Positions 3,001-45,200 of a stretch of 64,000 bases of DNA are shown piece by piece. A program made the position numbers and the translations under genes. The notes beneath the pieces were generated by a model. It saw only the letters and a program-made list of their open reading frames with translations. It did no database searches and was not told the origin of the DNA. Location of the stretch: positions 82,591,785 to 82,655,784 of the forward strand of contig CM048555.1 of NCBI GenBank assembly GCA_026413225.1, written 5' to 3'. How positions within the stretch are numbered: position 1 is the stretch's first letter; every line of letters starts with the position of its first letter. The DNA comes from Otis tarda. Taxonomy: Eukaryota > Chordata > Aves > Otidiformes > Otididae.

Positions 3001-3057
3001 GGTGGAGGGGAGCAGGGCCCCGCCGGCAACGTGCAGGGTGCCAGAGCTGGCTCCTAC
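1..3057. other. Non-coding stretch left of INSYN2-like exon 2
   Basis: This is GC-rich intron of the DOCK gene and, on the minus strand, intron or downstream region of the INSYN2-like gene. I looked for the last INSYN2 exon (expected SVE-D-F start and a basic, Trp-containing end) and for upstream DOCK exons and found neither. Confidence 0.5.
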
Positions 3058-7833: not shown

Positions 7834-10800
7834 GGCTCAGGGCCCCGGGGCCGCTGCCCTGCGGGGGGGCGCTGCGGCAGGGCGCGGGGGGCCGAGAACG
7901 GGCGGCCGGAGCCCTGGGCTGCACCCGTTCCCGGAGCTGCCCGGGGCGGCGGGCGGCCTCATCCCGCGCGGCCGCGGAGAGGGGATGCTGCGCGGGAGGC
8001 GGGCGGGGGGCTGCTGGGCATGCTGCCCACCGGCCGGCCCTACACCCCCCGGCACGCCGCCCCGACAGCCCTGCCCGCCGCCCTGCCAACCCCACGGTGC
8101 CGGCAGCCCATGGTCCCGCCGGCGTCCGCCCTGGCTCAGTGCTGCCCGCGGCGGGCTGCCCGGTGCCGGCCGCCCCTGCCCATGGCTCCCGGGGTGCCGG
8201 ACCTGTGGGGACAGAGAGAGGTGGGTGAGTCCCGGCCCCGCCGCAGCCCCCCGAGCACCGCTGGCCTCTGCCCGCCGCTGCGCGCCCCCTCCCAGCCCCG
8301 TCATCACGGAACGCGAAGAGACAAGCTTTGATCTCCGGCGCTGCCTCTTCAGCACAAAGGGAGACTGAAAAAAAGAAACCCCTTTAGCATAAACACGGCA
8401 CAAGTTCACAGCTCAAATCAAGCAGAAGCGGCTGTTAAAAATAGCTCTGCCTCGCTGGGGCTGGTGCCTCGTGTTCGCGGGGCGCTGGCAGCGGAGGGCA
8501 GGCACGGGGGGCTGCGGCGTGCGGGCACGGGGGGGCTGCTGCGTGGGATGGACGGACGTGGGGTACCGGCTCTGGACAAGATGTGGGCCGCCCAGCCTGC
8601 GTGGGGTATGGCTGGAGTGCGCAGAGGACCTGAGGTGTGTGGGGCAGGGCCAGACTGGGCACAGCCCCCATCCCGTACGTGGCACGCAGCAGAGCTGCGG
8701 CAGGGCTGGCTGGGCTGCAGGGGGGGGGTCCAGCTCCGTGGGCGGGGGGCGAGACTGTGACTCGGGGACCTTGAGCCGCCTCAGGTGCGCGAGAACCAGC
8801 CGAGAGGGAGAACGGGCATCGCAGCTGCGACAGTGACTGCGGCGAGACCGGGAGTTTGCTCCCAGCCCCTCACCGCAGAAAAGGGGGGTGGCTGGTGTCC
8901 CCCCAGCTCTCACCCGGGCCCTGCCGCAGGGCTGCGGCTCAGGGAGGCTGCAGTGGGGCTGCCTCCAGAGAGCGAAGTCTCCCTGGGCATCGTACCTTCC
9001 GCCATCGCGCGGCCCCACGCAGCCTGCCCGCATTGACCGCAGACCTCTGTGCACCCTGCCTCACGGGCAGGCACGCAGCACAGCTCCCGCTCGCCAGACC
9101 ACAGCCGGGACCCGGCTGCAGGACCGAGGGCGCAGGAGCGGGGGGCTGCCCCTGGGCACAGGGGATCACACCCGCCGTGTCCCCATCCCTGCCATCCTCA
9201 GTGCAGCTGTGCAGGGTGCCTCCTCCCTGCGCAGGCATGGCAAACCTCCCCCCACAGCCCTGTCCCAGCCATGTCCCCCTCCATGCCCACCTTGCTCTGC
9301 CCACCCTGGTCACTGGCTGCTGTCCCAGCTCATCAGGCTGGCTGGGCACGCAGGGGGCCCTGCCCGGCATGCCCCCGGGAGTGGAGAAGGCTGACGACTC
9401 ATTTCAGGAAGCAGCGCCAGGGACAGGGTGGGAGAGATGGAGACGCCAGCTCCAGCGGGCAGCAGCGCTGCTTTGCCTGGCAGCTCTGTGCCCCCGCATT
9501 CGAGGTCTGACAACACCCAGAAGCATCGGCGGCATGGGTGAGGAGCGGAGCACCGTGGGCTCCCTCGCGGCCTGGGCTCACGTCCTTGGACCACGTTGTG
9601 TCCCACATCTGGCAGCGTCGCGCCTGGCGCCAGTGGCCCCCGTCCTGGACTACAGCCCACTGCTCCCCCGGCGCCCCTGCACCCTCTTTGGCCCGCCGAG
9701 AGGGGAGCCTCTCTTGCTCCGCAGCCCTCCTGGCCCTTGCTGCAGATGGACACCTGGCACCAGCCCCCTGGGACCCCTCGCTGTCTTGCCCTGCACCCAC
9801 TGTAATGAAACAGCTGACTCAGCACAGCTGCCTGGAGTCACCCCGCACCAGGAACAAGCAAACTTCCCGCATACTGAGCGCCTCGGTGCCCCCGGCTTCC
9901 CCAGGCCACCCACAAGCCACCGGACCCCAGAGTGGGGGGCTCTGCAGCCCTTCCGGCCCCAGGCCCAGCGCCTCTGTACGGCGTTAGTCGGGATGCTGCT
10001 CCACACGCCTCCCAGCCGCCCGGCGCTTTTCTTCCCGAGCTTGGAGCCATGCCCAGACACCGGGAGATGTTTGCGAGGCAGGACGCGATGAAGACACAGC
10101 GGAGGGATGGGGCACCTCGTTAGTATGGACAGCAACAGGCGGAGGAGAGAGCTGGCTCAGAGATGGAGCCAGCACCGCTTGCCCCCGCGCCCCGCGCTCG
10201 CCGCAGGCTGCGTGCGAGTCCGGGAGGAGCAGCCCTGCATTCACGCCTGCCAGCACCTGCCCAGGACAGGGCAGAGCCCGCCGGGATGGCGAGGGGCCAC
10301 AGGCCAAGCCCCTGCCCAAGGCCTGGCTGCAGCCGCGGGGTCAGCTCGCCCCCTTCGCGCTGCAGCGATGGCTGATGCCCAGAGCTCAGCGCCCCTGGCC
10401 CAGGTCGCCCTTCAGCATCGCTGGCTGCGTCTGTGCCAGGGAGGTGACACGCCGAGTGGCACAGGGGGGCTGGCTGACAGGTCTCCGTGCTTGCGACCAG
10501 CATGGCCGGGCTGGGCGCTCCCGGAGGGCAGCCTGCGCAGAGGGTGCCAGGAACGGCTCCAACAGCCGCGTGTGGGGCAGGAGCACTTCCGGCAGCCCCC
10601 GTCAGTCTGCAGCGGGACCTTGCTGAGCCACGGCCGACGGCAGAGCGAGACAAGGCTGTTCCACTGCCTACGCAGCAAACGCAGTGCTGTCAGTCAGCGC
10701 GGCCTCCACCGAGGCACCCTCTGCCTCCCGAACCGCTCCGCTGGAGAGATCAGAGACGAGGCACAAGGACAAAGAAATGTCTATAAATTATACATACACT

Positions 10801-18220: not shown

Positions 18221-18294
18221 GAGGCAGAGACCGAGACCGAGACCGGGACCGGGACCGGGACCGAGACCGACACCGACACCGGGACCCGGGGCAC
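18221..18294. repeat. GAGACC/GGGACC/GACACC hexanucleotide tract
   Basis: About twelve 6-bp units (GAGACC, GGGACC, GACACC variants) form a tract complementary to the one at 17,771, making an inverted pair in the CpG island. Confidence 0.8.
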
Positions 18295-20813: not shown

Positions 20814-23800
20814 AGTCACTACGTGGCCTGCATGGCCGCCATCCTGAGCCAGATGGACAAGGACCACTACAGCTCCTACATCAAGGCGTTCCCGTCCCGG
20901 CCCGAGCTGATGGTGAGTGCTGCCCCGCGCCGCGGGACGTGGGTCCTCCATCACCGGTATCTCCCTGCCTCTCCGCTCAGCATCTCGGCAGGGGCACCTC
21001 TGCGAGTCCCAGTGCCCTGCCTGCACCTGAGCACCCAGCACTGGTGCCACCGGCCCTGTCCCCCAGCACAGTCCGCGTCCCCGCTCCACGGAGCTGAAGC
21101 TTTCGCTGTTGGGTAGCAAGGGTTTCTCCTAGCCCCAGTGCTCAGCACAGCATCACCCCTGGCATCTCCTCCTCCCCGGCAGGACTTCCTCATGGAGACC
21201 TTCATCCTCTTCAAGGACCTGATTGGCAAGACGGTGTACCCCTCCGACTGGATGGTGATGAACATGGTGCAGAACCGGTGAGCACCGCCAGGCTGGCGGG
21301 GACTTGGGGGCAGCCATTGGGGCCGGGTGTGAGAACTGGAGGTGCTGGGGCTGGGGCAGAGGGCTTGCAGGCGCTGCAGCGCGGCTGTGCTGGGCGGGTG
21401 AGGGCTAGCTTACCCCCCTCCAAATCCTCCTGGAGCAGCTCTGGGTCCATGCTCAGGCTGGCTCAGGGCAGCTCTGGATGCTCCCTGCTCTGTCCCGGGA
21501 CAGGCTGGTCCCGTCTGGGAGCCGGGTGGCAGAGCTGCTCCCTGCAGCCCCATCCATGTGCTTGGGGGGCTCCCGAGGGGGTGGGAAGCTGATGCCAGAC
21601 ACCTCACCCCTCCCACCCTGGGGGGGGTCCGCACACGGCGGGGACATGGGGCGCGCAGGACTGGTGCCCCCGTGCAGATCCGGCTGCACTGCCGCAGGCA
21701 GAAAGGACGGGACGGAGTGTGGGGGTGGGCACGGGCCCCCTGTGAGGCCAGCCCCGCTCTCCACCCACTGCTCACGCTGCCGCGGGTGGGTGGGCAGCGT
21801 GGCCGCCCTGCGCTCAGTGCCCCACTGCCGCGCGCCCCGCAGGGAGTTCCTGCGCGCCATCAACCACTTCGCCACGACCTTGACGGAAGTGTTCCTGAGC
21901 GACAGCAGCTTCGAGCTGCAGGTAAGTGGGTGCGGCCGGGGCTGGGGGGCCGGGAGGGGACCCAGCCCAGCCCTTGCTGCTGTGGGCGAGGCGCCGTGCC
22001 GCCTGCCGCCCAGACCCCGAGCCTGGCATTTGCCCCCGTTTTTTCACTGCAGCTGTGGAACAACTACTTCCACCTGGCCGTGGCTTTCCTCACCCAGGAC
22101 TCCCTGCAGCTGGAAAACTTCTCCCAGGCCAAGCGCAACAGCATCCTGGCCAAGTGAGTCACTCTCGCCTTCGCTGGCCTCCCCAGCCTGGCACCTCGGG
22201 GCCGAGCTCTGCTTCAGGTTCCGGCCCCAGCCTGCTGCCACGCCGTGCGGTCAGGCGTTTCAGGATGAGCTGGTCTGGCTGTGCTTGGGCCCCTGGCCTG
22301 GACGCCCCGGGCTGCGGAGCGATGCTAACCGACGTCCGTCCTGGCAGGTACGGGGACATGAGAGCCACGATCGGCGCTTCCATTCGGGACATGTGGTACA
22401 ACCTAGGTGAGCCACGGTGTGGCCGGCCATGAGGAGGCTTGGCAAGTCTCTGCAGGCTGGTGTGCGTCAGCACTGTCCCCAGAATGGGTGCAGGGGAGCG
22501 GGATGCTGCCGATATGGGGCAGGTGTGAGCAGGCTGCATGAGCCTGTGTGAGTCTGCAGGCGTGTGAGCCTGGGGGACGAGTGAGCCCGTGAGATGTGCG
22601 ACCTATGGGATGGCACGGGATGTGCAGTCTGGGATATGTGAGCCCGTGGGATGTGCGACCTGTGGGATGGCACGGGATGTGCAGTCTGGGATATGTGAGC
22701 CCGTGGGATGTGCACCTTGGCAAGGGCTCCAGGGCAGCAGCACGGCCCCAGCTGATGGTCCCTCAGCCGAGCGTTTGCTGTGCTGTCCTGGCCATGCAGC
22801 GTTGGCCGGCCCCAGGATTCCCCGGCTGCGCTGCGGCTGCCTGCCCTGGGCGAGCACATCTCCTGGCACCACTCTCCCCCTGCTCCATGCGCTGCTGCCT
22901 GTTCCCAGCCATGGAGCCCAGGCCAGGGCTGGCCCCGGGTAGCAGGCTGCACGAGCCTGGGTCCCCAGCCCCCCTTGCGCTCCCCAGGCAATCGCAAGAT
23001 CGAGTTCATCCCGGGTATGGTGGGCCCCATCCTGGAGATGACGCTCGTGCCGGAGCTGGAGCTGCGCAAGTCCACCATCCCCATCTTCTTCGACATGATG
23101 CTCTGCGAGTACCAGCTGACCAAGAGCTTCAGTCGGGTGAGTACCCAGGGCTGCGGCTGGGCCACGGCAGGAGGCCACCACGGCCGCATCCTGCTCCTCA
23201 CCCAGGCTGTACTGTCCCTGTTGGGGTGGGTGGAGGTGATGCTCAGCCCCCTGTGTCTCATCCTGGGATGTGGGGCTGCAGGAGGGAGGGACGAGGGACA
23301 GGGATGGGGGAGCTGGCAGGGACACGAGGAGCCGCAGGGACAGGGGACGGGGACAGGGACCCGTCTGTGCTGGGTAGCCCTGGGGAAAGGGGCAGCAGTA
23401 GCCGAGCCTGGGGGCTGTTTGGGGGCCCAAGCGGGCTCCAGGCCCCGCAGCCCCTCCCACCCCAGCACTGCGGCCTCGCGTCCCAGGGGCTGCGGCAGCC
23501 GAGGGCCAAGCTCAGCACCCCCTTGCATGCGTCTCCGCAGTTTGAGGACGAGATCCTGCGCAAGCTGGACAGCGAGGTGGAGGGCGGCCGGGGGGACGAG
23601 CAGTACAAGCAGCTTTTTGAGAGCATGTGAGTGTGCAGTGACATCCCCACCACCTCTCCCCAGGGCACAGCCCTTTGCTGTCTGCTGGGCTCCTGCCCAA
23701 GCTGAATCTCGGCCATCGCGCTCCTCCTCATGCTGGGCTCTGACCCGGAGCGGGGGAGCGGGGCCTGAGGAGAGGATGGGCAGCATCGTGTCCTCCTTGC

Positions 23801-26800
23801 GCACTGCAGCTGCCCAGCCAGCCTGCCCCTGCCTGCCTGGGGCGATGCCCCTGTCCCTCCCCATGCCCCTGCCTGGGGCGATGCCCCTGTCCCTCCCCAT
23901 GCCCCTGCCTGGGGCGATGCCCCTGCCCTGCCCCAGCTTTGCTCTTGCCTCGTGGTGCCCGTCACAGATTTGCGTGCAGGGTAGCTGGAGCTGTTGGGTC
24001 TCTCCCCCATCCCTGGTGTACCTGGCGGGGTCAGCACGGGGCTCGCTCTGTCTCGCTGCAGATTGGGTGTTGCTTTTTGTCCCTTGTTGGGGGACCTGGC
24101 CCCGACAGCTCCTGGCCCCTCGAGAGAGCAGAGCTGGGGTGGTGGTGGCAGTGCTGCGGAGCTGGGCATGCAGTGACCTGCTGCCTCCTCTCCTCCCCAG
24201 CCTGCTCAGCTGCTGCCGGGGACACCCTGAGCTGGCCAAGCCTGGGGAGAACTTTGTCGCGCTGGTGACCGGGCTCCTGGAGCGGCTCCTTGACTACCGG
24301 GCTGTTATGAACGACGAGAACAAAACCTACAGCATGAGCTGCACCGTCAACCTCCTGGTGGGCACTTGCCCCGTGCCCCCTGCTCCCCCAGGGCTCGGCC
24401 CCGTGTGTCCCCCTGGGGCTGCAGTGCTCCCGCACAGCAGGGATGGGGTGCGCTCGGTGCCAGACGCGGTGTCCCCTGGGGGGCTTGCTGGGAGGCACCG
24501 TGCAGCGCCCCGCTGCCGAGGGCAGCCCAGTCGCTGTGTGGGGACATTCTCAGCAGCACTGTGACCCCCAGCAAGGTGTGGGAGTGTGGGGGGCTGTGGC
24601 ATGTGCCCCCTCCTGGTACCACTCAAAACAGCCTCATCTGCTCTTCCCCAGAACTTCTACAAGGAGATCGACCGCCAGGCCATGTACATCAGGTGAGCGC
24701 GGCGTCAGGGACACCAGTGTCACCCCGGGATGAGGGGTCCCAGGCCCCGAGCTGCCCGGCCCCCACCGCCCTGGCCCCAGGCACATGGGATGGCGGAGCG
24801 GCCCGAGGCGCGGGGCAGAGGGGATGCTGCCCCACGGAGGAGCGCGGCCAGAGCCCGGGCTGCGCTGGCTGTCACACCCCGCACACGGTACCCTTGCTCC
24901 CAGGTACCTGTACAAGCTGAAGGACCTGCACATCAGCTACGAGAACTACACGGAGGGAGCCTACACCCTGCTGCTGCACGCCCGGCTCCTCAAGGTGAGG
25001 CGTGGGGCGCGGGGGGGCTGCGGGGGTCGCCCGGCCAGGGCCCAAGGGCTCGGCGTGACGGGCTGCCACGGCCTCTGCGCAGTGGTCGGACGAGGCGAAT
25101 GCAGCCCCCATGCAGGGCTTGCACAGCCCCAGCCTGCACACCCAGCGCCAGCTGAAGGAGGCTCTGTACAACCAGATCATCGACTACTTCGACCAGGGCA
25201 AGGTGAGCGCGGCCGCGCGCCCCGGCAGCCCCCCTCGCCCTGGCCGGCTGGTGGGAGCTGGGCGTCCCAGGGCAAGCCGGGCTCCCATCCACCGCTGCCT
25301 CCTGCTGCAAGCCCCCAGACTCCATGCGGCCCACCTGCCCACCCCACTGGTGTGGTGGGGCTGGAGCTGCCCTGCAGCGAGCCTGGGTTGGGCGGTTCAC
25401 CCCACGGCCACCTGCTCTCCTTCCCCCATCCCATCCCAGCTGGGGGCTGGCAGCTGGGACACCCCAGGAGAGGGGCTCACTCGCGTGGGGGGCTCAGTTG
25501 TTGGAGACAGCAGGAAGCCATGTCCCGCTGCAGCCCACCAGCGCCAAGCCGGACCACCAGCTGGCACGGGGAGAGCCCTCCCCTCCTCACTGGGGAGCAG
25601 GGGTGCGGGTGCCCCCCAGGAGGGGCTGGTCTCCTCTGGAAGCCCCCAGTTCCCCCTGCGCCCCAGCTGACCTCAGACCGTGGGACCCCTGCCCTGCTCC
25701 CATCCCGTGCAGATGTGGGAAGAGGCCATCCACATCTGCAAGGAGCTGGCAGAGCAGTACGAGAGCGAAGTCTTCGACTACGAAATGCTGAGTGACATCT
25801 TGGTGAGTGCCCAGCGGGGCTGGGGGCCAGCTGCCAGCGGGCGCCACGAGCCATGGGGAGAATGAGGGGTCCACAAGGCTCCTGTCCCACAGCGGGGCCC
25901 CGTCCCATCCCCGCTCCTGCCCCTCTTCCCCTGCAGCAGCGGGAAGCCAAGTTCTACGAGAAGATCCTGAAGGTGCTGCGGCCCAGCCCGGACTACTTTG
26001 CTGTGGGCTACTATGGGCAAGGCTTCCCCACCTTCCTCCGGGTAAGCAGCTCCCGGCTGCCCGGGGCCGGTGCCATGCCAGCAGCCAGCGCTGTGCCAGG
26101 CCGAGCCTCACAGCGCGACCGTCTCAGGGTGGCACCCCGTGAGCTGAGCACCAGCGGCGTCCCCGCTCCCGAGGGATGGGGCTCCTCTCCGGGATGGGGG
26201 TGAGAACCAGGTCCCCTGGGCCAAGCGCTTCAGCCAGGCCAGCCCCACCTGGGAGAGCGGGAGGAGGTCTGGCAGCACCACGGGGTCCCTGGAACAAGGG
26301 TGTCCCCAGGGATGGGGCGAGCAGGGCGCAGGCTTGGCACCTGTGGGGAGACAGCGTGGCCCCGGCTTGCTGCGGGGTGCAGCACGGCGTCTGCGAGCCC
26401 AGGCTCTTCGGGCATGCTGCCTTTGAGACGAGGACTTGCAAGGGTCGGAACAGGATCTCGGCTGCAAGCAGAAAGCCACAGCCTCAGCAGCAGGTGGGGA
26501 GCCGTGGCTCCTCCAGGCCCCTGTGACCTTCCTGGGGACCCTCCGGCAGCGCCGGCAGAGTGGTGGCTCCAGCACAGACACCTGTGTCTGCACGGTGTCA
26601 CGTCGAGGGTGGAGGGACACGTGTGTGTCGCGGTGCCGAGATGGGTCTGTGCTAACGGTGCTGTTCATGAGCAGATCCGGGTGCCTCCGGGGTCACTGCG
26701 GGAGCCCCACCGCCCCTCTCCCCGCCGCCCTCTCCTTGTGCCGGCAGGGCAGGGCTGTGGGCAGGGTCTTCTCAGCACCTCTCCCTTTTCCTGCGCTGGC

Positions 26801-29800
26801 AAACATGCTCCTGGCATCCACCTGCAAGAGCAGGGCTCGTCTTCCCAACGAGAGCAAAGTGCTTCGCCCCCATTCACCCCCATTGCGTTCCCCACATTTT
26901 AATCTGCTGGAGTTGGCACGCTTGGTGTGCCGCTCCCATCGAGTGTTCAGCCTTACTCCCCTACCCCGCTGTTACTGCCACAGCACGGGCGCCATCACGT
27001 CCACAGCGGTCACGGTGGGTTTCAAGGGCTCCTTGCTGTCCCTGGGTGGTTTCTGTCCCCGTCGACCACAGATCCCGGTCGCTGCGTGCCTGCCCAAAGA
27101 CCTTCACTCCAGAGCCCCAGCCGTCCGAGCCAGCCCGCCCTTTAAATCCCTTTTCCTCCAGTTGCTGGTTTGGAGAAACATTGTTTTCGAGAGGGGGGGG
27201 TCTCCTGCTCGGCTGGGGGCTCGGCGTCGTCGGTGCCTGCACCCCAAGCGCACTGGGACTCGCTGCAGCACGCGGCCGAGGGCTCCACAGCCCCGCTCTG
27301 CAGCACGCTGGGACAAGCTGGCATCTTCCTCCCCACAGAACAAGGTCTTCATTTACCGGGGCAAGGAGTACGAGCGCCGGGAGGACTTTGAGATGCGGCT
27401 GCTGAGCCCCTTCCCCAACGCCGAGAAGCTGAAGAGCACGTCTCCCCCTGGCCAGGACATCACCGGCTCCCTGGGCCAGTGTATCCTCCAAGCGTGGGGA
27501 CAGGGCTGGGGGTGGCTCGTTCCCTGTCCCATAGCCCCCCGCGTGGGTCCCGCAGCGCCTCCCCACGCAGCCCCGGGGCCCCTCTCCTGCTGCGTGCCCG
27601 TGGTCCTTCACTCCCGCAGATATCCAGTGTTTCACCGTGCAGCCGGTGGAGGAAGCCAAGGTCCGGTTCAAGGATCGGAGCATCCCGGAGCAGATCACCA
27701 AGTGAGTGCCGCGGCATGGAGGGGGTGCGCCCGCTCTGCTCCGCAAGGGATGGGGCGCGAGAGGGGGTCTCTCCCATCCTCTGCCCCTTCCCTGCCCCGC
27801 AGTTTCTATAAAGCCAACCACGTCCAGAAGTTCAGCTACTCGCGGCCCTTCAAGAAAGGCCCAAAGGACCCAGACAATGAATTTGCAGTGAGTGCTGGCG
27901 GGGGCTACTGGGACCCCTGGCTGGGAGGGATGGGGAGAGCTGGAGGGGCCCTGTGAGGAGCCAGGTGTCCAGGGGGAGGGGGATACAGGAGAGATGGTGC
28001 TCCCCCGGCCCTGGGATGAGGAAGGTGGTGATCCTGTGCCCATGGGAAGGGGAGGTTAGAGCCCCAGCCCCACGGGGCAGCCGGGGGTGTCCCAGGGCGA
28101 TGAGGAGCAGGGCGGTGGATGACTGCTGCCCTTCCCACAGAACATGTGGATTGAGCGGACGACGTTTGTAACAGCCTACCCCCTGCCCGGCATCCTGCGC
28201 TGGTTTGTGGTGACCTCCACCACCACGGTGAGGAGGGGATGTGGAGGGAGCGGGGGTCTCCCAGGGCATCCCTTCCCCACACAGCACCACAAACCCCAGA
28301 TGCAGGTGGGCGCGCTGCCCCGGCGCCTTCCAGGCTTCCCAAGCGCGAGTGGCTGAAGCCAGGGTGTGGGGAGCGCGTCCCACCCGCTGCCCGGCTGAGC
28401 CCCCTGCCTCGGACCCCAGGCCCATCGGTCTCTGCTCTCGCTGCAGCCCTGCTCCAGCCCACCCAGCGCTCGAGCCCCCAAACCTCGCGACTCCCAGCCC
28501 GCGCCTGTGCCCCCATGGTGGTCCCTCGGGTGCATGGCCCAGGACAGCGCCTGCAGCAGAGCAGACCCAGCTCCGACCTGCACCCTCTGCCCGCAGAGCG
28601 GGGTGCGAGCATGGCCCCCTTCCCCCTGCGAGCACAGAGCCCAGCTACCACCCCTGCCCAGCAGCGAGGGGGCACCCCCCTTCGACATCGCCTTGGGCCC
28701 GCTGCCCCGGCTCCAGGGCTGACCTTGGGCCAGCGCCATGTGGGAACGCTGTCCCTGGCCATGTCCTCAAGAGCTGACACTGGGCACAGAGACCCCCACC
28801 CCGGCACTCGGGGCGCCAGCAGCCTCTGTGGGCTGGTACCAGGGACTGGTTTGTGTGGGTCACCCACTGGGATGCACGTCTCCGTGGGAAGCAGGGGACA
28901 GCGTGCGGGGAGCAGCAGAGGCGCTGGAGGAGTTTCAGCTCTGCACGTGGGCTTCATGGCTCTGTCGGAGCGAAGTGCCTGGCCAAAGCCCAGGGTGTTT
29001 CAGCTGCTGCAGCCAGGAAGGGGTGAAATGCCCCAGCTGAGCTCCCGCACGTCGGCTGTGCTGCAGGGCACCGGTACGGCTGCACGAGTGCTGCTACACA
29101 TGCATCTCCGCAGCGCTGGGGCCCTGCACGCTGCTGCTGCACAGCCGCCCCCCAGGACAACATTTCCCATGAGCTGCCCGCTGAGCTGCCCCGTCACATG
29201 TCCGTCGCCTGCCCTGCGGCTCTGTGCTGCAGGAGTAACCCTGCCAGCAGCCTGCGCACAAAGCCGGGGACCAGCACTCCCAGTGCTCCCCCGTGAGCCC
29301 TCGGCTCGGCTCCAGGCAGCCGGTGCCAGGAGTCCGAGGGGCTTCCTGGGGTGAGACGTGCAACCTCGGGGCTGCCCACCTCCGGGCCCGGGGAGAGACT
29401 ACCCGGCCAGCCTGCGCAGCTCTTGGGGTCAGCCAGCTGCTCACCTTCCCTCCCTCCGCGGGCACAGACCATCATCTCCCCCCTGGAAAACGCCATTGAG
29501 ACCATGATGAAAACCAATGAGAAAATTATGAGCGAGATCAACCGGCACGAGAATGACCCCAGCCTGCCTGTCAACCCGCTCTCCATGCTGCTCAACGGCA
29601 TCGTGGACCCTGCTGTCATGGGTGGCTTTGCCAAATACGAGATGGTGAGGACACGCAGGTGCTGCGCCAGGGCCAGTGTGCGCACTCTCGGGGCTGGCAA
29701 CCGCAAGCGCTGGCGCTGCTTCGCGCCATCCCCTGCCTGTGCAGAGCCAAGCCAGCCACCAACGGGACTGAGAGGGGGTCATTTCAGGCCTTTTTCCGGG

Positions 29801-32166
29801 AGTCCTACCTGCAGGAGCACCCTGAGGACGAGGGGAACATCGAGAAGCTGAAGGACCTGATTGCCTGGCAGGTACAGCCCGCAGCATCGCTCTGGCAGCT
29901 GGAGGGGACCGCTGCCCTGGGGCACCTGGTGTCCCCGTCCTGGGGGAGCCCTGCGAGCCCAGGCAGATCCGTCCCTGCTCTTCTGCAGACGCCGCTGCTG
30001 GCAGAGGGGATCCGGATCCACGGGCGGAAGGTGACGGAGGACCTGCGGCCCTTCCACGAGCGCATGGAGCAGTGCTTCGTGCAGCTGCGGGCCAAGGTGG
30101 AGAGCCAGTACGGAGTGCGGGAGATGGTGAGTGCCAGGGCAGTGAGCGCGGTGCGGGCACAGCCAGGGCTGCATGGACAGTGCATGGCCCTGGACGAGCC
30201 AACGCAGGTCCAGGGCAGCAGGGAACAGCTCGATGGGGACGCAGCTGCAGCAGCAACAGGTGAGGGGCACAGTGCATGGGGGACCTTGGGGTCCCTGCCT
30301 GCCCTGGGTGGGGCGGCAGCAGTGCGCAGGGTGGCTGGTACCCACACAAAACCAGGAGCAGGTGAGGGGATGCTCTGCACTCCATGGCCCCTGGCCCTCA
30401 GGTCCCTGTGCTCTCAGGTGTGCTTTGAGGACCGGCGGAGTGGACGACCACGGTCCATGGCCTGGGGACCTGAGTGGGACCGGCTGAGCCATGCTGGAGA
30501 TAGGTACGTGCTGCGGTGGGGGGCACTGGCCCCGAGCCACTCCCTCTTACTGCCCTCACCCACCTCCCACTGGCCCCTTTATGCCCAGATGCATCTCAGG
30601 GCTCCATCCTGCCATGCCACCACGATGTCACCTGAGCCGCCTTGTGCTTGTCTTGCTGGCTCGTCTCCCCTAAGCATCCACTACTGAGCCCTGCCAGAGA
30701 TGGTGCTGGTGCCTGGCTGACTGTGGCCACTCCTGGCCACCTGTAGCCCTGCTCCCCATTCCCATTGCCACCCCTCACCAGCCACAGTTGCTCCACAGCA
30801 CAGAGGCAACCCTGACCCCAAAGCCTGTCCCTCGCACCTCTGAGAGTGAGGACCGCAGGACGGAGCGCAAGGAGAACCGCTCCAGCACCTTCTTTGGGTA
30901 CCGGCGGCAGGACCTGCGCCAGTCCATCTCGGAGCTGCCAGAGCCCAAGGTGATGCTCAGCACAGCCCTGGTGCCTCCCCAGCTCCCCACTCAGGCCTCA
31001 GCACAGCCAGGACCCCTGGGGGGGCTGCTGGCAGCCCCTGCTGCAGGGTGCAGCCGGCTGAGGGCAGGGAGGGCAGGAGCAGAGGCTGGTGGGGCACAAG
31101 GCTTGGAGACCCAGGGCTGTGGGCAGGGGCTGCCTTTGGGCTGCGGGCAGGGTGCTGGGGAGCACTGCACCCTGCCAGGGGCTCCTGCGTTCCCGGGGCT
31201 GTGGGTGCTGCAACGCAGCCTGGCCCCCCCGAGGCACTGAGCCTCCCCTCTGCACCCCAGGACGAGAAGCGGAGACTCTCCCGCAACATGAGCGAGAGCA
31301 GCCCGGGCAGCTCCGACAGGAAACAGCCCCCGCCAAGCCGAGACCCCACCGGCGCCCAGCCCGGCACTGCAGGTACTCCCCTCCACGGCTTCCGGCTCAG
31401 GGCACCTTCCCAGCGCCTCCACCCCCACCCCGGCATGGCCCAAGGGGGGCACCTTCCCTCACCCCACAACCCCAAACAGCATCCAGCCTTCCTGTGCACA
31501 AGCAGGGCCGTGCCCCCACCTCAGCAGTGCAGGTAGCAGCACCCCAGCGCAGGCACCCTCACCCCCTCGCCCTGCCCCTGCAATGGTGCGGGCACGTCCT
31601 GCAGCTAGGAGCAGGCAGGGAGACCCCACACAGCTTGCGTGTCCCCCACTCAACACTGCCTGTGGGTTGTCAATCCCGGACCTCGTGCCACTGGGTCCTG
31701 GTACTGAGATCAACCCCCCCTCCTGACTGGGCTCGTGCCCCACGCCACCCCTGGGGCAGTCCTGCTCCCGCAGTGGGAGAGCTGGCCTTGGCAGCCCAGG
31801 GCCCCCACAGCCCCCCAGGCTGGACGATGCCCCCAGCTCACCTCCCCTGCCTGCGCAGGGCTGTCCCTGTCTCCCACCGGCTTCGGTGGCCGTGTGAAGA
31901 GTGCCAGCAAGGCCCCGCCACTGCCCCGGAAGATCAGCCCCACAGTGTACGAGACGTTCCTGGAGCAAAGCGACACCACAACTGGAGGGAAGGTAGTGCC
32001 TGGCCCAGGCCCCTGGCCCCGGTGCCCCCCACCCCCAGTGCCCCCTGCCCCCAGTAACTGCCCGCTCTGCTTGCAGGCTTCCACGTCGCCAACAGCAGAC
32101 GGAAATAAAGGGCTGAAGTTGCCACCACCTCCGCCACCAAAGTCCAAACGCCTCTCACAGCTCTGA
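20814..32166 (+). CDS. DOCK-A family Rac guanine-nucleotide exchange factor (DOCK1/2/5-type), 3' half, 25 exons
   Basis: DOCK-A proteins bind ELMO and activate Rac through their DHR2 domain. Exons: 20814-20912, 21183-21277, 21843-21921, 22053-22153, 22348-22406, 22988-23136, 23541-23626, 24201-24357, 24652-24692, 24904-24994, 25083-25202, 25713-25802, 25937-26041, 27339-27480, 27620-27701, 27803-27887, 28141-28227, 29468-29644, 29788-29871, 29989-30126, 30418-30503, 30799-30949, 31261-31372, 31859-31992, 32077-32166 (TGA). All phases match, giving 879 codons with no stops. Landmarks are [65 protein letters not shown] and [19 protein letters not shown], followed by a 190-residue tail with [17 protein letters not shown] and [12 protein letters not shown]3 and DHR1 exons are absent and must lie upstream. 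From memory it is closest to DOCK5 ([13 protein letters not shown]) but too divergent to be its plain orthologue. Confidence 0.93.
22583..22712. repeat. 57-bp tandem duplication in a DOCK intron
   Basis: Two full copies and a partial third of a unit beginning GAGCCCGTGGGATGTGCGAC lie in the intron between 22,406 and 22,988. Confidence 0.8.
23828..23932. repeat. About 36-bp minisatellite in a DOCK intron
   Basis: Three near-identical units containing GGGGCGATGCCCCTG lie in the intron between 23,626 and 24,201. No further structure was seen. Confidence 0.75.
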
Positions 32167-33508: not shown

Positions 33509-35935
33509 TCACAGCGGGTTTGCTGAGGAGGCCGCCAGCCGCTTCCCAATGTAGATCCTGGATTGGAGAGAGTGACTGTAAGGCACCGGCATGGGGACAG
33601 GACCATGGCTGCTGGGAGACGTGGTGCAGGAAGGGACCCAAGGACAAGGAGTCCAACTGCGGGAGCATTCCTCCACTTCCCATGGGGACAGCCCCCCGGG
33701 TCGGGGCAGCCAGAGGCCTTGGACAGCCTCAGACCGCACAGACACCAAGCAGTGCAGGGCTGGCCCTGCCTGCACCCCAGGGGTCGGTTCTGGCCAAGGC
33801 CACTCGACAGCACAGGGCAGGCCCATCAGAAACTCACCCCAGTCCCAGCGTCAGCACGTGGCTGAGCAGCAGCGAGGGGATGAAGAGCAGCAGCAGCTCT
33901 GAACTGAAAAGTCTCTTCTTTCTCCCCACTGCACCTCCCTGCAGGCTCCACAGCACCGGCTGGGGGGAGCACACAAAGGCAAACTCCCTGGGAAAAGTGC
34001 ACGGTTAAAGAGGGCAGGAGGGAAGAGCACACCAGAGGGGACAGGGACAGCAGGGCAGAGCAGACACCAAGGGCAGCGCACAGCAGGATGTGCTGGTGGG
34101 GGACGTGGGCCTTACTTTGGGGACAGATGCCGAGTATGGGGGGCACAGGCCCAGCCGAGGGATGCTGGCAGGCGTCGCTCCCTCTGCTCAGCTTCCTCTG
34201 GCGCATCTCGCTAGAAGGAGCGTAGCGCAGGTAAGAGCAGGGGCAGGGCCAGCACGGCCACGGGGCGCAGCACAGGGGCCAGCTCCCTTACCTGCCGGGA
34301 GTGGGGACAGCCCGGCTGCGGCTGGCTGCGGGAAGGAGCGGCTCGCTCTTCCCAGGCTGCTCGCTCGCCTGGCCCGCTCCGTTGTCATCCCAGCCCGGGG
34401 AGCCCAGCGCGAGCAGGGCACTGCAAACACAACCCTCTCGGTCACTGAGCCTGCACCGCCCCTCGGCCCCCCAACACCCACCCTGGCCAGGCAGGACTCC
34501 GGGTGCCTGGGCTCCTCCTCGGACTCACCTGTCACTGCTCTCTGTTTCCAGCTGGGCCTCCAGCAGCATCCGCTCCACGTCGGCGTGGCAGGATGAGAAA
34601 CGCGAGGGCGCGGGCTCGGGCTCCGCGCACCCTGGGCCACACCGCAGCTCCACCCAGGAGCCTGGGGGGGCTGTCAGCCCAGCACCAGCCTGGCCCCCAT
34701 AGCACCCTCCTGCTCTGCCCCGGGCCCACCAACGCACCCCACTTTCCAAGAGGCCTCCTTGGCTCACCCCATCCCACTGGGAGCCGGCCCCAGTGCATCC
34801 CACACCACTGCCCAGGGACCACGGGAGCACTGAGTGCAGCCTTCATCCTGGGACGGCCTGCACACCTCTACCTGCCCTGGGCTGCCCCTCGGCGTGCCCC
34901 GCTCCCCCGGGACCCCCATCCTCCTCTGCCCTGGTCCCCAGGGTGCACATCAGCCTGCCTGTCTGAGACCCCCACTGACTCAGCTCCCCCTCGTGCACAC
35001 CCACCCACTTGGGACCCATGGAACCAACCCCTCCTGGTACACACCAGCCCACCCGGGACCCCCGGCGCATGTCAGCCCACCTGGGATGCACCCCCTCCCC
35101 GGTGCATGTCAGCCCGCCCGGGATCCCCAACCCAGACAGCCCGGGTCACGCCAGCCCGCCCGGGACCCCCATCGACCTTTGCCCCCCCCCCCCCCCGCCC
35201 CCCGGTGCACGCCAGCCCGCCCAGGAGCCCCATTGACCCTGATCCCCTGGTACACGCCAGCCCGCCCAGGACCCTCGGGACCCCCATTGACCCCGATCCC
35301 CCCCACTGCACGCCAGTGCGCCCGGGCCCCCCATTGACCCTGATCCCCCGGTGCACGCCAGCTCTCCCGGGCCCCCCATCGCCCCGAGCCCCCGGTGCAC
35401 GCCAGCTCTCCCGGGCCCCCCATCGCCCCGATCCCCCGGTGCACGCCAGCCCACCCGGGCCCCCCATTGACCCTGATCCCCCGGTGCACGCCAGCCCACC
35501 CGGGCCCCCCATTGACTCAGAGCCCCCGGTGCACGCCAGCTCTCCCGGGCCCCCCATCGCCCCGAGCCCCCTGTGCACGCCAGCCCGCCCGGGTCCCCCA
35601 TTGACCCTGATCCCCCGGTGCACGCCAGCCCACCCGGGCCCCCCATCGCCCCGATCCCCCGGTGCACGCCAGCCCGCCCGGGAGCCCCATCGCCCCGAGC
35701 CCCCGGTGCACGCCGGCCCGCCCGGGCCCCCATCGCCCCGATCCCCCGGTGCACGCCAGCCCACCCGGGAGCCACATCGCCCCGAGCCCCCGGTGCACGC
35801 CAGCCCACCCGGGCCCCCCATCGCCCCGATCCCCCGGTGCACGCCGGCCCGCCCGGGCCCCCCATCGCCCCGAGCCCCCGGTGCACGCCAGCCCGCCCGG
35901 GAGCCCCACGGACCGTCGTCGCCGGCGCACGCCAT
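33509..35935 (-). CDS. BNIP3-family mitochondrial receptor (third BNIP3/BNIP3L-like gene)
   Basis: BNIP3 and BNIP3L are outer-mitochondrial-membrane mitophagy receptors. Exons on the minus strand: 35935-35914 (ATG; weak donor GTCCGT), 34661-34529, 34420-34292, 33987-33838, 33557-33509 (TGA). Phases match throughout and give 160 residues, against about 194 for BNIP3 and 219 for BNIP3L. Residues 9-13 are SWVEL, the LC3-interacting region (W-x-x-L) of the family. DVERMLLEAQLE follows, like DMEKILLDAQHE of BNIP3L. The C-terminus carries a Lys/Arg pair, FSSELLLLFIPSLLLSHVL, then GLG-IYIGKRL across the last splice, which is the family transmembrane anchor with its Ser-His and Gly-xxx-Gly pattern. 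The acidic centre and the DWSSRPEN block are poorly conserved or lost. It lies tail-to-tail with the DOCK gene and just downstream of AUP1 on the same strand. Paralogue status is inference. Confidence 0.85.
35020..35910. repeat. 44-bp minisatellite filling intron 1 of the BNIP3-like gene
   Basis: Roughly 20 tandem units contain CCCCGGTGCACGCCAGCCC and CCGGGCCCCCCATCG. Spacing is 44 bp where regular (for example GGTGCAC at 35,350 and 35,394). Degenerate units extend left to about 34,840. It includes a run of 15 C at 35,182-35,196. Confidence 0.9.
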
Positions 35936-39200: not shown

Positions 39201-42200
39201 GGCCATCGTGCTCTGGCTGCAAGCCGTCAGAGCAGACGAGACAACACAGCCACCAAAAGTACCTTGGAAGGCGGCACAGCTACAGAGCCCCGGATGCCAG
39301 CTGCAGCCTGGGAGGTAGACGGGGCAGGCAGGTCAGTATCAGCCTCCGTACTTTCAGGGAAGAAGGGTACTCTCCCCTCCAGCAAGTTGGCAATGGTGGT
39401 ATCCACACAGTTGGTTTGGGCTGTCGGGACAAGGAGGATCCATTAGAGAGGGACCTGCTACATCAGGACACTCATGTCCTTGCTGCCATTGCGCTCCACA
39501 GTGCAGCGGGGACAAGGTTTCTGCTTTCAGGTATCACAGAGACTTGGCATGGAACGTGAGCCCGCGTCACTGCTACCACCCCAGGCACCGCTTACCCAGG
39601 TCTATCCTGATGACCTCCAGAGGGACATGAGGCAGCACCTCCTTGACCCGCTGAGCCATTGCCGCGATCCGCACATCCTCGGGAGCAACACCAGGCAGGC
39701 TGGAAGGCACCCTGGTCCTGGCTGCCAGGGGCTGGCTTGAGGCTGCAAGAGAAAGAACAGTGGGCACAAGAGTGTGACCTAAAGGTGCACGGCCTTCGAG
39801 CTGTAACAGCTCCACCTTCTCTAGTGTGACCTGGCGTGATAAGAAAGCCGGAGTTCCTGCACACAACCGTCATGTCTGTGCTCAGGAGCGGTGGTCCTCT
39901 CCCTGCAGCCAGTTACAACCCCCAGCCCAGAGCACACAGGCAGCCCCCGCTCCCCAGGAGGATGTCGAACATGCCTTCTCCTCTCCCTCCATGCACGAGT
40001 AACCAGGAGCAGGCTGAGGCCTCCTGAAAGGCAAAGCCTCAGTGGCAGTTCTGTAGGCAGGACACTACCCAGGAGACCCACCTGGGGCAAAGGGGAGAAG
40101 CGACGTGTGTCTCAGCCTCTTCATGTGTTCAGTTTTATCTGCTGCAGTGAGCCGTGTGGATACCACACCCAGCTCCACGGCCAAGAGCTGTGGAAATGCA
40201 GAGAAGAGTCACATGTACACGACCCACAACATGCGTGACCCAGGCATTCCCATCTTGCAGGGGAGCGTATCAGATGTACAGGCCTGCGTGGAGCCACGGC
40301 GAGGGCAAGAGGACTGGGAACTGATTTCTCCAGGGCCTCAGTGATGCATTTCAGTGTTGCATGGAGCACATGAAGGACCAGTAGGTAATATCATCCTGCC
40401 AAAACAGGCTGACAGGGAGATACAAGATCTTTGGTACAGGAGCTATGACGTACCCGGCACGTAAGGGAAAGGTGGAGAAGCAATTGCTTTACTTGATTCG
40501 TGGTACTATGAAAGGGAGTGAAGGGTTTGAACTAGATGGGGAGAGCCTTGATAACTGGCAGAAAGGATAAATGGGGGGTAGGCCATGGAAAAATTGAATA
40601 ATTGTAAGGGGCAATAAATACGGGCCAGAGCTCCCATCGTACAAAGGCACCCATCCAGAAACGCCCTTTGCAACTCTGCTTGCAGCCCGCTTTCCTCTGT
40701 GACCATCCCAAATTGCAGCAGTCCTACACATCCCTCTCCCACGTCATCCTCCTACCTCCTGAACTCGGAGCGCAAAATCCTCACTCAGTTCTTCAGCTCG
40801 TCTGGGGACAGACGGCATCCACCTGAATGGGGACAACAGCACTGGGCCGACTGCTTCGAGGGCTGCTGGAGGAGCCAGCCCCATCTGGGATCAGTAGTGC
40901 AAAGGCGCTATCCCCACCTCAGCTCTCCCTGCTCACCCCACAAGATGAGTGTCAAACGTCAGCACTAGCTTGCACAATTAAGGGCACAGCTTAGAAGACA
41001 AAACTGGCTCACTGAATCTTTTTTAGCACTCAAGCGTAACATGCGAAGGATCTCCTAATGAAGTTCCCAGAAAGGTCCCAATGAGAAGCCACTGCCATTT
41101 ACATGAAAGCAGAAAACAGATCAGCAAGACTCGAGCCAGATACGGCCAGGGAAAGCTACAGCACAAGAGTTCTCTTTGCTGAAATACCCCGACCTCTAAA
41201 TTTTACCCCAAGCCCCTTCCACTGCCTAAGAACCTGTGTTACAGCAAAGCTGCTCAGACAGCCTGGGCTCACCGGGCCCAAGACAGGTGTCTGAACCCCT
41301 CTGCAATTCACAAGGAATTGCAGGGAAGAGACAGACGCTGCAGGACTGAGGTGCCTGCAGGGAATCACCCCTGGGACCTGAGCAACCCTGGGGTGAATTA
41401 CAGCAGAGCAGCTAGCTTCAAAAATATACCCAGCAAACTTGACATAAAAGCCTTGAGAGACTGCTCTCCTTCATCAACTACACACAGAAACCAAGAGCCC
41501 TCTCCGCTTCAGAAGCTGGTCCAGAAGCTGGACCTGGCACAGACCAAGTAACGCTGAACAAAGCCGTGCTGAGATACCACAACGATGGTGCGCATTAGCA
41601 CATACCAAAAAATCTCTTACTACAACAGCAAAAACGCCAGGCTCTCTACCCACCCTAAACCCCGCCCCAAATGAAAGAGGAAGAGAGATAGTACCTTACT
41701 TGATATACTGTGAAGGGAACAAAGAAGGTCCAGAGCAGCTCTGTGATCCAGGAGGAGTCAGCCACACTCTGAGGAAGAGAGCACAATGAGATCGCGGCCC
41801 ACGACACACCAGCTAGTCAGGTCTCCAGCAGGGAAGCAGGCGGGCAGAACACAGCTAAGCCACGGCAGCAAGTAACAGATACGCAGGCAGAGACGTGGAG
41901 GACTGGGAACGAAGGGACGGTAAAGCCAGCGGCACAGGGAGGCAAGCACCAGGGCAGATTCACCTTCACTAGTCTTCACCAGGCAGAGCAAGAGCGTCAA
42001 AGTTTTCACTGCTCTAAGTCATCTTTTCCTCCCACTAGGACAGCAAGATTTTCCCTCAATACGTCACCTCCTCTACTAGACTGAGCCTTTAGAAAGGACC
42101 GAAAATGCTGTAAGACCTACTAATGCTTCCTCATAATCATGAACAATCCTCCCTTATTGTCATGGGAACAGCCCCTCTGACATCTCAACTCCCATACGCT

Positions 42201-45200
42201 TTACCTCCTCATTTCCAAACAGGCCGCACTGTGAAGTCTTAAACCACTCTTCTCTTTGAAGAGAAATCGTTAAAGGTGAGCTGTAACTTATTACTTTCTT
42301 CCTTTTTCTAAAAATTATTAAAGAACCTTTTCCCTAAGAAGTACCGCGATGCCTGCCAGCAGAGAACACTGGAACAGGCGCTTTGAAGCGGTGGGCTGTC
42401 CATCCTTCTCAACGGGACGCAGCCTGAGCAGCTGCACCGTACTCAGAAGCCAGTCTGACTGTGGGCAGAAAGCTGATAAAGACCTCCAGAGATTCCCACA
42501 CATCTACACTTTTCAATGATTCTAAAGAATTTGCTATTGCGTGGACATTGTTCCCAGGATTTTTGTAGTTGGTTAGTTTTATCCTGCAGTGACTGAACTT
42601 GCCACGAGCTGGTGAGAACACTACCTCAAGAGCTAGAGCTCGCAATGTAGCTACTTCGTCTTCTTTTACCCCGACTTCGTCCTCGACCAAAGCAACGTGG
42701 CTCCAAGACCGGCCACGTGCCTGGTTTACTCCACAGCACCCTCCTTAAAGGTTCCTGACAATGGGAGCTGGAGAAAATTCCTTCTTAAACCCAAATTTGG
42801 TGGTTTGCTCAGCCCAGAGTCTGATATATATCACATAAGTGTCTAAGAAAGCTTTCTGTAAACCACTGATAGAACCATTCAAAGCACCGCATCTCCAGTC
42901 CTCAAAAGTTTCTGATGGTTTAAAACTACTTAGCTAACGTACATGAAGGGCAAGAAGTCCTGCTCGACCTCTGAAGGCAAAAATATGAGCCAAGAAGTGA
43001 CTATAACCAGTATCTTCAAACAGATCCACAGTGGTGTGCCTGCTGTTCTCCCTCACACTCGTGAAGGAAAGGATGCACAGACAAATACACGACTTGTCTC
43101 ACCTTACAGAATTTCTCAGAACCATAAAAAGCTAAGATATTTGTTATAAACAGTCCAGAATGGGACAGCTCTCCCACTTCTCTGCAGTAGGCATTAAAAA
43201 ATCTAAAGCATCCTCACTGTTAGAAAATTGCATCTTAATCCAAAACTGAACTTGTGCAGTACCAACATTTAGTCTCAGCACCTGCAAAGACTGCTGCTGT
43301 GTGCTTTGTCAGAAAAGAAAAAAAAAAGGAATTCTCCACTCTTAAGCCTCTTCTCCAATGTGCAAGCAGCTATCCACAACAATCTCTCTACCTTTTCTCT
43401 GATAAGCTGATTAAGCTGAGTGCCTTTAAGTGCTGCTCTCTGGATTCTGCATCACGCTTACGGCCTTCTCGAACTCTGTCTACTACTGCCCCACTTTCTT
43501 GGCAGCGGGGTTACCAAAGCTTCATGTAATATTTTAGCGGTTTCCATCATTGCGCACATCCAGCTAACGCTGTGTTCCTCGCCCTGCCAGATATTCCTCT
43601 TGTTACACACCCACACAGAACACCAGACTTACACTGGCAGTGATCGGTAGCTCACTGGATCACAATCAACACCTGAGCTTTGTCATTACTGATGTGACCT
43701 TAACCAGCAGGGATCTCGGTATCGTCACCCGCAGCACCAATAAAGCACTAAACAGCACTGGGCAAAGGACTAATCCCTACCAGATCCTCACTTCAAAAAT
43801 ACCTGCATGCTGATCTTTTAGAACGGGCAGCGATGTTTTGTGACCTGCTGGTAAGTGGCTTTAAATCTGTCCACTGTGCCCTACTGCCTTAAAAAGATGG
43901 ACCATAGAGAATCAACTGAAACGTCACACAAATACAAAATGTGTCATTTCATCAAGTAGATCCATAAATCATATTAAGAAACAAAAAGTTTGACAAAATC
44001 TCACTCTCTAAATAAGCCGAGAACGGGTTTATTGCAATCTATTTGGCAGCGGCAGTATCACCATCGTGAACTTTGCCACTTTTCTGGCGCTAGTGTTGCG
44101 CCATGTTACACATCTGCACTGTGAGGCAGGAGTTCAAGAACCCGCTCCAGAGAGCCTTGCACAACCCCTGGCACATCCACCGCTCTCTGAGGTGACTGGA
44201 GCTACTCTTTCAAAGCACTTTAAAAGAAGGGAGCTTACAAAGAGGAGGTGAGACACAGTGACGCTACGGTCACGGAAGCCAGATGGCACACTGTTAGACA
44301 GCTGAGCCACCAAACCCTTTATCAAAATTGCCAGTGTAACTAAGAGTTCCACTTAGTGGAAGGTCCCTGGGAAAGGCACCTGAAAAACAGCGTTAGCACC
44401 GAGAGGCTGGTCCGTGGGGTGACAGGGCACAAGGCCAGGCTGCACTGCCCACGGGCTTCAAAGCAGCAGCAGAATTAACAGCATTGCCAGGACCATCAGA
44501 CAGTGCATGCCTCCACAGCGCCTCCTTGCCCTACGTCCCTGACTCACCACAGTGATCAAAGGCCTCTGAACCTGTAGGGCAACTGGCTGTACCACATCCA
44601 AGATCGAGAACGGCCAAGAGCTGAAAAGGAAGAATTCAGCAGTGAATGACCCCAAAGCTAAAACCAAGCGATGACAGCCCCACTGCAGGAATACCTTCCC
44701 TAGTACCTGAAGCGGAGCAAGCCAGCCCGGCCGTTCGTGGCAGCCTCCTCCGGGAACAGCAGCAGTGGGGGGTTTCCTCTGTGGGACGAATACACCTTCA
44801 GGGAATCCACCAGCTCTGCTCGGCTTCCCGTTACTCCCAGCTCCATGAATCCTCGTGACCAGCAGATGAAGCCAGGGGCACCGTTCAATGCAGGCTGCAA
44901 GGAAAAACAAGAATAAGGTGGAAATGCCGTCCTGTCCTCCCCTCAGGGCTTACTTTCCCAGGTGACAGTGGGAGATAAAGTTCCTGCTTATTAGCAAAAA
45001 TGCCTCTGGGGCTGAGGGAGCAACCTGCGCGCTAAAAGCACTAGCAGCAGAGAACACCTTACTGCCAGCCTTCAGCGACTGCTCTGGCCCCAGTTCCCTA
45101 GGAATCTGATTCCTGATCTTCGGTTCAGACTGTACCTGGCCTGTACCCAGGAAGCGAACTGCCCCCTGGCCCTGGCTGATAACCATGTCTCCTCATGTTC

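Follow-up and report, generated by a model that had tools for sequence, protein, structure and literature searches.

A DOCK2-like gene of Otis tarda as a probable fourth vertebrate DOCK-A gene and sister of DOCK2

In a 2022 review, eleven DOCK proteins are counted and the DOCK-A subfamily consists of DOCK1, DOCK2 and DOCK5 (PMC9559381). A stretch of 64,000 nucleotides of the 1.2-Gb Otis tarda genome (bases 82591785-82655784 of contig C4, near the end of this 82.8-Mb contig; hereafter the window) carries a run of DOCK-type exons, and the question it raises is whether these belong to one of the three genes, which encode switches of cell movement, or to a further one. We put the probability at roughly 0.93 that these exons are the 3′ half of a fourth DOCK-A gene of vertebrates, here called DOCK2L, which is the sister of DOCK2, lies on the Lbx2/Tlx2 paralogon and most likely owes its origin, like DOCK1, DOCK2 and DOCK5, to the genome doublings of early vertebrates.

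Within the window, 25 DOCK exons on the plus strand (20814-32166) can be read in a single frame through 879 residues to a TGA stop. Their borders were chosen by eye and then checked by script: CAG precedes all 25 exons and GT stands at all 24 internal donors. An earlier note, made from the letters of the window alone, had described 25 intact DOCK-A exons; the exons are indeed intact, yet they form only the 3′ half of the gene. Spliced alignment of a human DOCK1 sequence to 50 kb of upstream DNA located 27 more exons between window positions -29788 and -3177 (G000:C4:82561996 to 82588607). The whole gene, which starts ~29.8 kb 5′ of the window and spans 62 kb, comprises 52 exons and encodes 1810 residues from ATG to TGA, free of stops and frame breaks. 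The model contains a single GC donor, and its least certain border is at the start of exon 27. A gene truncated to the DHR2 half was also considered, and this idea was dropped when the N-terminal exons were found upstream of the window.

Pfam profiles recognized an SH3 domain, DOCK_N, C2/DHR1, the TPR region and DHR2 lobes A, B and C in the encoded protein, each above cut-off, the SH3 domain with the SH3_2 model only (SH3_1 and SH3_9 remained below theirs). The same domain types are found in DOCK1 (DOCK180) and DOCK2. The exon borders had been called family-typical in the earlier note, and comparison with DOCK5 of the same genome agrees with this: 37 of 45 exons are identical in length, seven differ by multiples of three (for exon 47, the difference merely reflects the end of the DOCK5 model), and one lies at the uncertain DOCK5 start. 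For this comparison, one DOCK5 exon that the aligner had split in two was rejoined.

DOCK1, DOCK2 and DOCK5 are all present in the same genome besides the window gene, on other contigs. DOCK_N profile matches were obtained on six contigs. On C23, 46 exon pieces of DOCK5 were recovered, with 89% identity to human DOCK5 over 1575 positions. DOCK2 is represented on C14 by 24 matches from its N-terminal half, which are on average 89% identical to tinamou DOCK2, the figures being 57% for both the window protein and DOCK1 and 61% for DOCK5. DOCK1 lies on C7, where the two exons compared are 94% and 92% identical to a bird DOCK1. The remaining DOCK_N places, on C13 and C1, reach 31-42% identity to DOCK-A proteins over a single exon apiece and probably represent DOCK3 and DOCK4. 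A profile search of the genome with PF06920 listed 12 matches, none of them at the window gene, and the eight loci from this search match none of the four DOCK-A proteins. Since the window gene was missed, profile searches of this kind do not recover every family member, and a fifth DOCK-A gene may still be found.

The earlier note had regarded the identity to DOCK5 as low for an orthologue, and the whole-protein figures bear this out, with 56% to human DOCK5 for the window protein versus 89% for DOCK5 of its own genome. Its view that DOCK5 is the nearest relative did not hold: the window protein is 60.3-60.5% identical to two DOCK2 rows and 60.6% to a bird DOCK1, and a search against solved structures gave 1089 bits for DOCK2 versus 1033 for DOCK5. 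Overall identities to DOCK1, DOCK2 and DOCK5 rows are thus 56-61%. Within its own clade, described below, identity is higher, at 95% to the cormorant, 82.5% to the alligator, 74% to the caecilian and 66.7% to the elephant shark protein.

To classify the gene, the protein databases were searched with the full protein; 8000 candidates were scored, and the best 120 of 1936 matches, down to 2387 bits, were listed. All 120, together with 15 further proteins, were placed in a FastTree phylogeny with the root between DOCK1+DOCK5 and the rest. Of these matches, 92 fell into the clade of the window protein (the window clade), 27 into DOCK2 and one into DOCK1. Among the matches listed, the window clade comprises 77 bird rows (isoforms or fragments in many cases), two turtles, one alligator, one caecilian, two salamanders, seven cartilaginous fishes, one gar and one nameless row. 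No mammal, squamate, frog, teleost, coelacanth or lungfish was placed in the window clade among the best 120 of the 1936 matches; this absence concerns listed proteins of at least 2387 bits, so that a fragment or a fast-evolving copy would escape it, and the genomes of those groups were outside the search. The 27 listed DOCK2 rows include mammal, squamate, frog, teleost, coelacanth and lungfish proteins. The suggestion of a fourth DOCK-A gene retained in birds is thus supported, but retention extends beyond birds, since the clade also contains turtles, a crocodilian, amphibians, a gar and cartilaginous fishes.

The main tree was built from 51 rows (49 proteins of 359 fetched, picked for taxon spread, and two from this genome) and 1816 columns under LG+G4, with DOCK5 represented by amniotes only. 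Its topology is ((DOCK1,DOCK5),(DOCK2,window clade)). Once the gar protein was counted with the window group, support was 100/100 for each of the four groups, namely the window group (19 rows), DOCK2 (14 rows), DOCK1 and DOCK5. DOCK2 is the sister clade of the window group, and DOCK5 pairs with DOCK1 on the other branch. A posterior mean site frequency (PMSF) mixture-model tree returned the same four groups with support of 99-100. The window protein therefore stands outside the DOCK5 and DOCK2 clades in a clade of its own, as the earlier note had proposed in arguing that it is not an orthologue of DOCK1, DOCK2 or DOCK5, and these three genes are found elsewhere in the genome.

These results bear on the plainest alternative, namely that the window gene is simply the DOCK5 or DOCK2 of birds, evolving fast in a GC-rich chromosome end. 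The region is GC-rich, and many relatives carry the names DOCK2 or DOCK2-like in databases. Against this, the true DOCK5 and DOCK2 lie on C23 and C14, and DOCK1 on a third contig; the window clade includes sharks and lies outside DOCK2; and in the approximately unbiased (AU) test, joining the window clade with DOCK5 was rejected (p 1.9e-67), as was joining it with DOCK1 (p 4e-8). Orthology to either gene was consequently discarded, and we give it next to no credence.

A second alternative is that the gene is a later duplicate of DOCK2 that originated in tetrapods or birds, which would fit its position as sister to DOCK2. Cartilaginous fishes occur inside the DOCK1, DOCK2 and window clades of the unrooted main tree, with seven cartilaginous fishes in the window clade among the listed matches and another shark in DOCK2. 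The presence of cartilaginous fishes in both DOCK2 and the window clade implies that the two lineages parted before jawed vertebrates diversified, whichever inter-group root is chosen; on these sequences, the separation of the window clade from DOCK2 is older than that of cartilaginous from bony fishes. When the tetrapod and gar rows of the window clade were joined with tetrapod, coelacanth and lungfish DOCK2, the constrained tree was 704 log units worse and was rejected by the AU test (p 1.8e-31). Forcing the gar protein to group with DOCK2 was also rejected (p 1.2e-6). The gar protein itself (P0095, ‘DOCK2-like’), a member of the window clade, has a terminal branch of 0.63 compared with a median of 0.07 and is without the CRK-type motif discussed below.

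The surroundings of the gene provide a further line of evidence. The order on C4 is a TLX-type homeobox, the DOCK gene, a BNIP3-family gene, AUP1, HTRA2 and LOXL3; the DOCK gene had been described as next to AUP1, which overlooked the BNIP3-family gene in between. The TLX-type homeobox lies at window -46.7 kb, 17 kb 5′ of DOCK exon 1, and the middle of the homeobox consists of unknown letters. The names AUP1, HTRA2 and LOXL3 are those we take these genes to have. For AUP1, the name also agrees with the gene order in PMC2446394. According to that paper, the human order is LBX2, PCGF1, TLX2, DQX1, AUP1, an HTRA gene, LOXL3 and DOK1, which would put the position of the DOCK gene between TLX2 and AUP1 (PMC2446394). 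In chicken, Aup1-Htra2-Loxl3 belongs to the Lbx2 paralogon, one of four Lbx/Tlx paralogons described, and lies on a contig attributed to chromosome 4, whereas Dock2 accompanies Tlx3 on chromosome 13 and Loxl2/Dok2 lie on chromosome 22 (PMC2446394; Wotton et al., 2008). The window locus thus resembles the Lbx2/Tlx2 paralogon in its AUP1-HTRA2-LOXL3 order, here with a TLX gene close by. In the main text of the same paper, ‘dock’ appears as Dock2 four times and as ‘Docking’ (DOK1) once, and none of these mentions puts a DOCK gene at this paralogon (PMC2446394).

In the genome itself, the four DOCK-A copies lie on four contigs (C4, C7, C14 and C23), and the window neighbours fit the Lbx2/Tlx2 locus. 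The seven BNIP3-family matches are confined to three contigs, namely C7 with DOCK1, C23 with DOCK5 and C4 with the window locus. The BNIP3-family gene at 33521-34661 on the minus strand, which adjoins the DOCK gene, is the third of its family found in the genome. Known members of the INSYN2 family are INSYN2A and INSYN2B. An INSYN2/FAM196-family gene lies antisense inside intron 27 of the window gene; its first coding exon (~6340-7834, by eye) scored 26.1 bits with PF15265, just below the cut-off of 27, and its later pieces (3057-3134 and 18 to -56), when joined, scored 76.6 bits. In DOCK2 of the same genome, two antisense INSYN2-type matches occur 8-11 kb past exon 27 (C14:4311534-4314466; E 4e-10 and 0.003), and no DOCK2 exon was found between exon 27 and these matches. 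They probably lie within DOCK2 intron 27, exon 28 being beyond the DNA examined. In contrast, intron 27 of DOCK5 in this genome measures 0.9 kb and gave no convincing INSYN2 match.

The antisense gene shared by the two loci could also be cited for a late duplication of DOCK2, but the window neighbours are unlike those given for Dock2 in PMC2446394. Together with the test results above, this leads us to reject such a duplication, which we hold to be very improbable. For the three other DOCK-A loci, the neighbours read in this genome were BNIP3 (C7 and C23) and INSYN2 (C14), and the rest were taken from PMC2446394 and from PMC6135963, in which DOCK5 is placed beside GnRH1, and DOCK1 with FAM196A near GnRH3. 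Taken together, the synteny agrees with what would be expected if a single ancestral block had been duplicated in both genome doublings of vertebrates (2R). Genome doubling would then be the cause of the DOCK-A quartet, and the window gene is most likely the fourth member of this 2R set.

With regard to function, the positions that are invariant across 32 rows of DOCK1, DOCK2 and DOCK5 are largely kept in the window protein: 152 of 160 in DHR2, 58 of 63 in DHR1, 181 of 191 in the TPR region, 107 of 123 in DOCK_N and six of seven in SH3. Taken as a whole, the SH3 domain differs more, being 38-48% identical to that of DOCK2 (two rows). The nucleotide-sensor stretch of DHR2 (10 residues), which we take to be the one holding the invariant valine, is intact and identical to that of the compared DOCK1 and DOCK2 rows. 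The invariant DHR2 valine serves as nucleotide sensor, DHR1 binds PI(3,4,5)P3, and SH3 and the adjacent helices form the ELMO-binding site (PMC7351999). The window protein is most likely an ELMO- and CRK-coupled Rac activator, as predicted from its sequence. Its SH3 domain and neighbouring helices would bind ELMO, DHR1 would bind phosphoinositides at the membrane, and the DHR2 valine sensor would drive GDP release from Rac, so that the protein would be a Rac exchange factor. The PPLPRK motif in its tail may recruit CRK-type adaptors, as the DOCK1 tail does.

The CRK-type motif has the consensus PxLPx[K/R]. It was sought in residues past 1560 of 19 window-clade, 14 DOCK2, 11 DOCK1 and six DOCK5 rows; the DOCK5 model from this genome, being without a tail, was excluded. 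The motif is present in 16 of the 19 clade rows (the window protein included), in all 11 DOCK1 rows, in five of six DOCK5 rows and in none of the 14 DOCK2 rows; for strict PxLPxK, the counts are 15/19, 11/11, 1/6 and 0/14, respectively. The earlier note had held that the tail differs from that of DOCK5. Nevertheless, the proline-rich stretch PPPPPPKSK occurs in human DOCK5 as well and is lacking in the compared DOCK2 rows. Poly-proline CRK-binding sequences are described for the DOCK1 tail (PMC9688060). The simplest reading would be that the ancestor possessed a CRK-type tail motif that DOCK2 lost and the window gene kept. A sharp contrast with DOCK2 is nonetheless doubtful, as DOCK2 has been reported to associate with CrkL (PMC9559381), and the activities of DOCK1 and DOCK2 were maximal when ELMO1 and CRKII were co-expressed (PMC7351999). 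In view of the CrkL association, the window gene and DOCK2 may differ in how, not whether, they meet CRK proteins.

It may be asked whether the gene, while a fourth ohnolog, no longer works as a Rac guanine nucleotide exchange factor (GEF) in birds and is decaying or has changed partners. Its evolution is faster than that of its sisters, several lineages have no protein among the matches listed, the CRK motif is lost in the cormorant and falcon rows, and 16 of the 123 invariant DOCK_N positions are changed. On the other hand, the reading frame is uninterrupted across all 52 exons, the cormorant protein is 95% identical, and the DHR2 domain retains 152 of its 160 invariant positions and the valine-sensor stretch, all of which speaks for a functioning protein. 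A full-length intronless open reading frame (ORF) points in the same direction: P0006 (source ‘lgn’) is an ORF of 1816 residues on a contig of 6390 bases and is 96.6% identical to a quail protein, its nearest relative. Given that the gene spans 62 kb and that this contig has no room for introns, P0006 is most simply a transcript from a relative of quail, a retrocopy being the possible alternative. On balance, loss of exchange activity seems unlikely, although less so than the two alternatives of orthology and late duplication, and a Rac activator remains the preferred interpretation.

Several points weigh against the interpretation of the gene as an ancient sister of DOCK2 on the Lbx2/Tlx2 paralogon. 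The groups of the AU tests were defined with the tree in view, not all of them beforehand, and the tree is unrooted, with no invertebrate, lamprey or DOCK3/4 rows. The age rests on cartilaginous fishes in both DOCK2 and the window clade, and the shark side of DOCK2 is a single row. The gar row had been labelled DOCK2 after its name in the database and was reassigned to the window group once the tree was known; with its original label, the DOCK2 and window groups each needed two changes. The window clade evolves faster than its sisters, with 67% identity between the window and elephant shark proteins compared with 87% for DOCK1, and PxLPx[K/R] is missing from three of its 19 rows (cormorant, falcon and gar). 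At the locus, PCGF1 and DOK1 probes gave no match within 144 kb, and an LBX probe matched, in the same 144 kb, only the TLX place and more weakly. In human, SLC4A5 and MTHFD2 are located at 2p13, near AUP1. In chicken and gar, both are found at the GnRH1 locus, with DOCK5 (PMC6135963). Two blocks therefore seem to be mixed in human 2p13, and the map of the paralogons is not perfectly clean.

The exons of the DOCK gene and the other genes of the window are compiled in Table 1. The outer limit of LOXL3 was set by eye, the pieces tested for domains lying at 60720-62768. In the first exon of HTRA2 (47361-47703, plus strand), the start MAALARW... and the later part are in different frames, possibly owing to an indel, real or from assembly, in a GC-rich stretch. 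By eye, long imperfect repeats rich in G+C occupy 34900-35930, between the BNIP3-family exons and AUP1, and a CT-rich repeat lies at 3240-3490. A CpG-rich stretch in DOCK intron 27 (17300-18400, by eye) was considered as an alternative DOCK promoter and dropped, the promoter and 5′ exon of the nested antisense gene being likelier.

Table 1. Positions of the DOCK exons and other genes in the window (position 1 is the first base)
Feature	Position	Strand	Basis
DOCK exon 28 of 52, first in window	20814..20912	+	splice reading
DOCK exon 29	21183..21277	+	
DOCK exon 30	21843..21921	+	
DOCK exon 31	22053..22153	+	
DOCK exon 32	22348..22406	+	
DOCK exon 33	22988..23136	+	
DOCK exon 34	23541..23626	+	
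DOCK exon 35; DHR2 lobe A begins near exon end, residue 1203	24201..24357	+	
DOCK exon 36	24652..24692	+	
DOCK exon 37	24904..24994	+	
DOCK exon 38	25083..25202	+	
DOCK exon 39	25713..25802	+	
DOCK exon 40	25937..26041	+	
DOCK exon 41; DHR2 lobe B begins inside	27339..27480	+	
DOCK exon 42	27620..27701	+	
DOCK exon 43	27803..27887	+	
DOCK exon 44	28141..28227	+	
DOCK exon 45; nucleotide-sensor stretch, DHR2 lobe C	29468..29644	+	
DOCK exon 46	29788..29871	+	
DOCK exon 47	29989..30126	+	
DOCK exon 48, tail	30418..30503	+	
DOCK exon 49, tail	30799..30949	+	
DOCK exon 50, tail	31261..31372	+	
DOCK exon 51, tail; CRK-type PPLPRK	31859..31992	+	
DOCK exon 52; stop TGA	32077..32166	+	
INSYN2/FAM196-family gene, antisense inside DOCK intron 27	3057..7834	-	Pfam PF15265
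BNIP3-family gene, core exons only	33521..34661	-	Pfam PF06553 on joined pieces
AUP1, outer limits approximate	39260..47037	-	CUE domain on joined pieces
HTRA2	47361..57040	+	trypsin-like domain
LOXL3, continues past window edge	59847..64000	-	SRCR and lysyl oxidase domains, joined pieces

Proteins of the window clade are already in databases, where they are filed as ‘dedicator of cytokinesis protein 2-like’ and in some cases as DOCK2. For example, the alligator, manakin, elephant shark and some chicken entries named DOCK2 fall in the window clade. The chicken UniProt entries P0044, P0069, P0079 and P0084, named DOCK2 or DOCKER-domain protein, belong to the window clade and not to DOCK2. A literature search whose coverage mostly excluded subscription journals found no paper describing the gene as a separate DOCK-A member. 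A close parallel is the Kazald family, whose four members, hitherto undescribed, are the subject of a 2026 paper (PMC12955574).

A fourth DOCK-A gene would complete a 2R quartet of the form ((1,5),(2,2L)), and further unrecognized ohnologs at this locus are suggested by its INSYN2-family gene, nested in the DOCK gene, and by the third member of the BNIP3 family. The fourth gene would also offer a natural comparison for how DOCK2 became an immune Rac activator and lost its CRK-type tail motif. More tentatively, and with doubt prevailing, vertebrates may have begun with four DOCK-A genes, and a twelfth DOCK gene would survive today in sharks, gar, salamanders, caecilians, turtles, crocodilians and birds. 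It would have retained the CRK-binding motif of the ancestral tail, whereas DOCK2 would have lost this motif and become a leukocyte specialist. If so, DOCK2 would be unaccompanied in mammals, in contrast to other vertebrates, in which two genes differing in adaptor coupling would be used. Chicken, alligator, manakin and elephant shark entries named ‘DOCK2’ can be the fourth DOCK-A gene, which calls for caution in their use, and under the same proposal DOCK biology drawn from chicken ‘DOCK2’ entries may partly concern a different gene.

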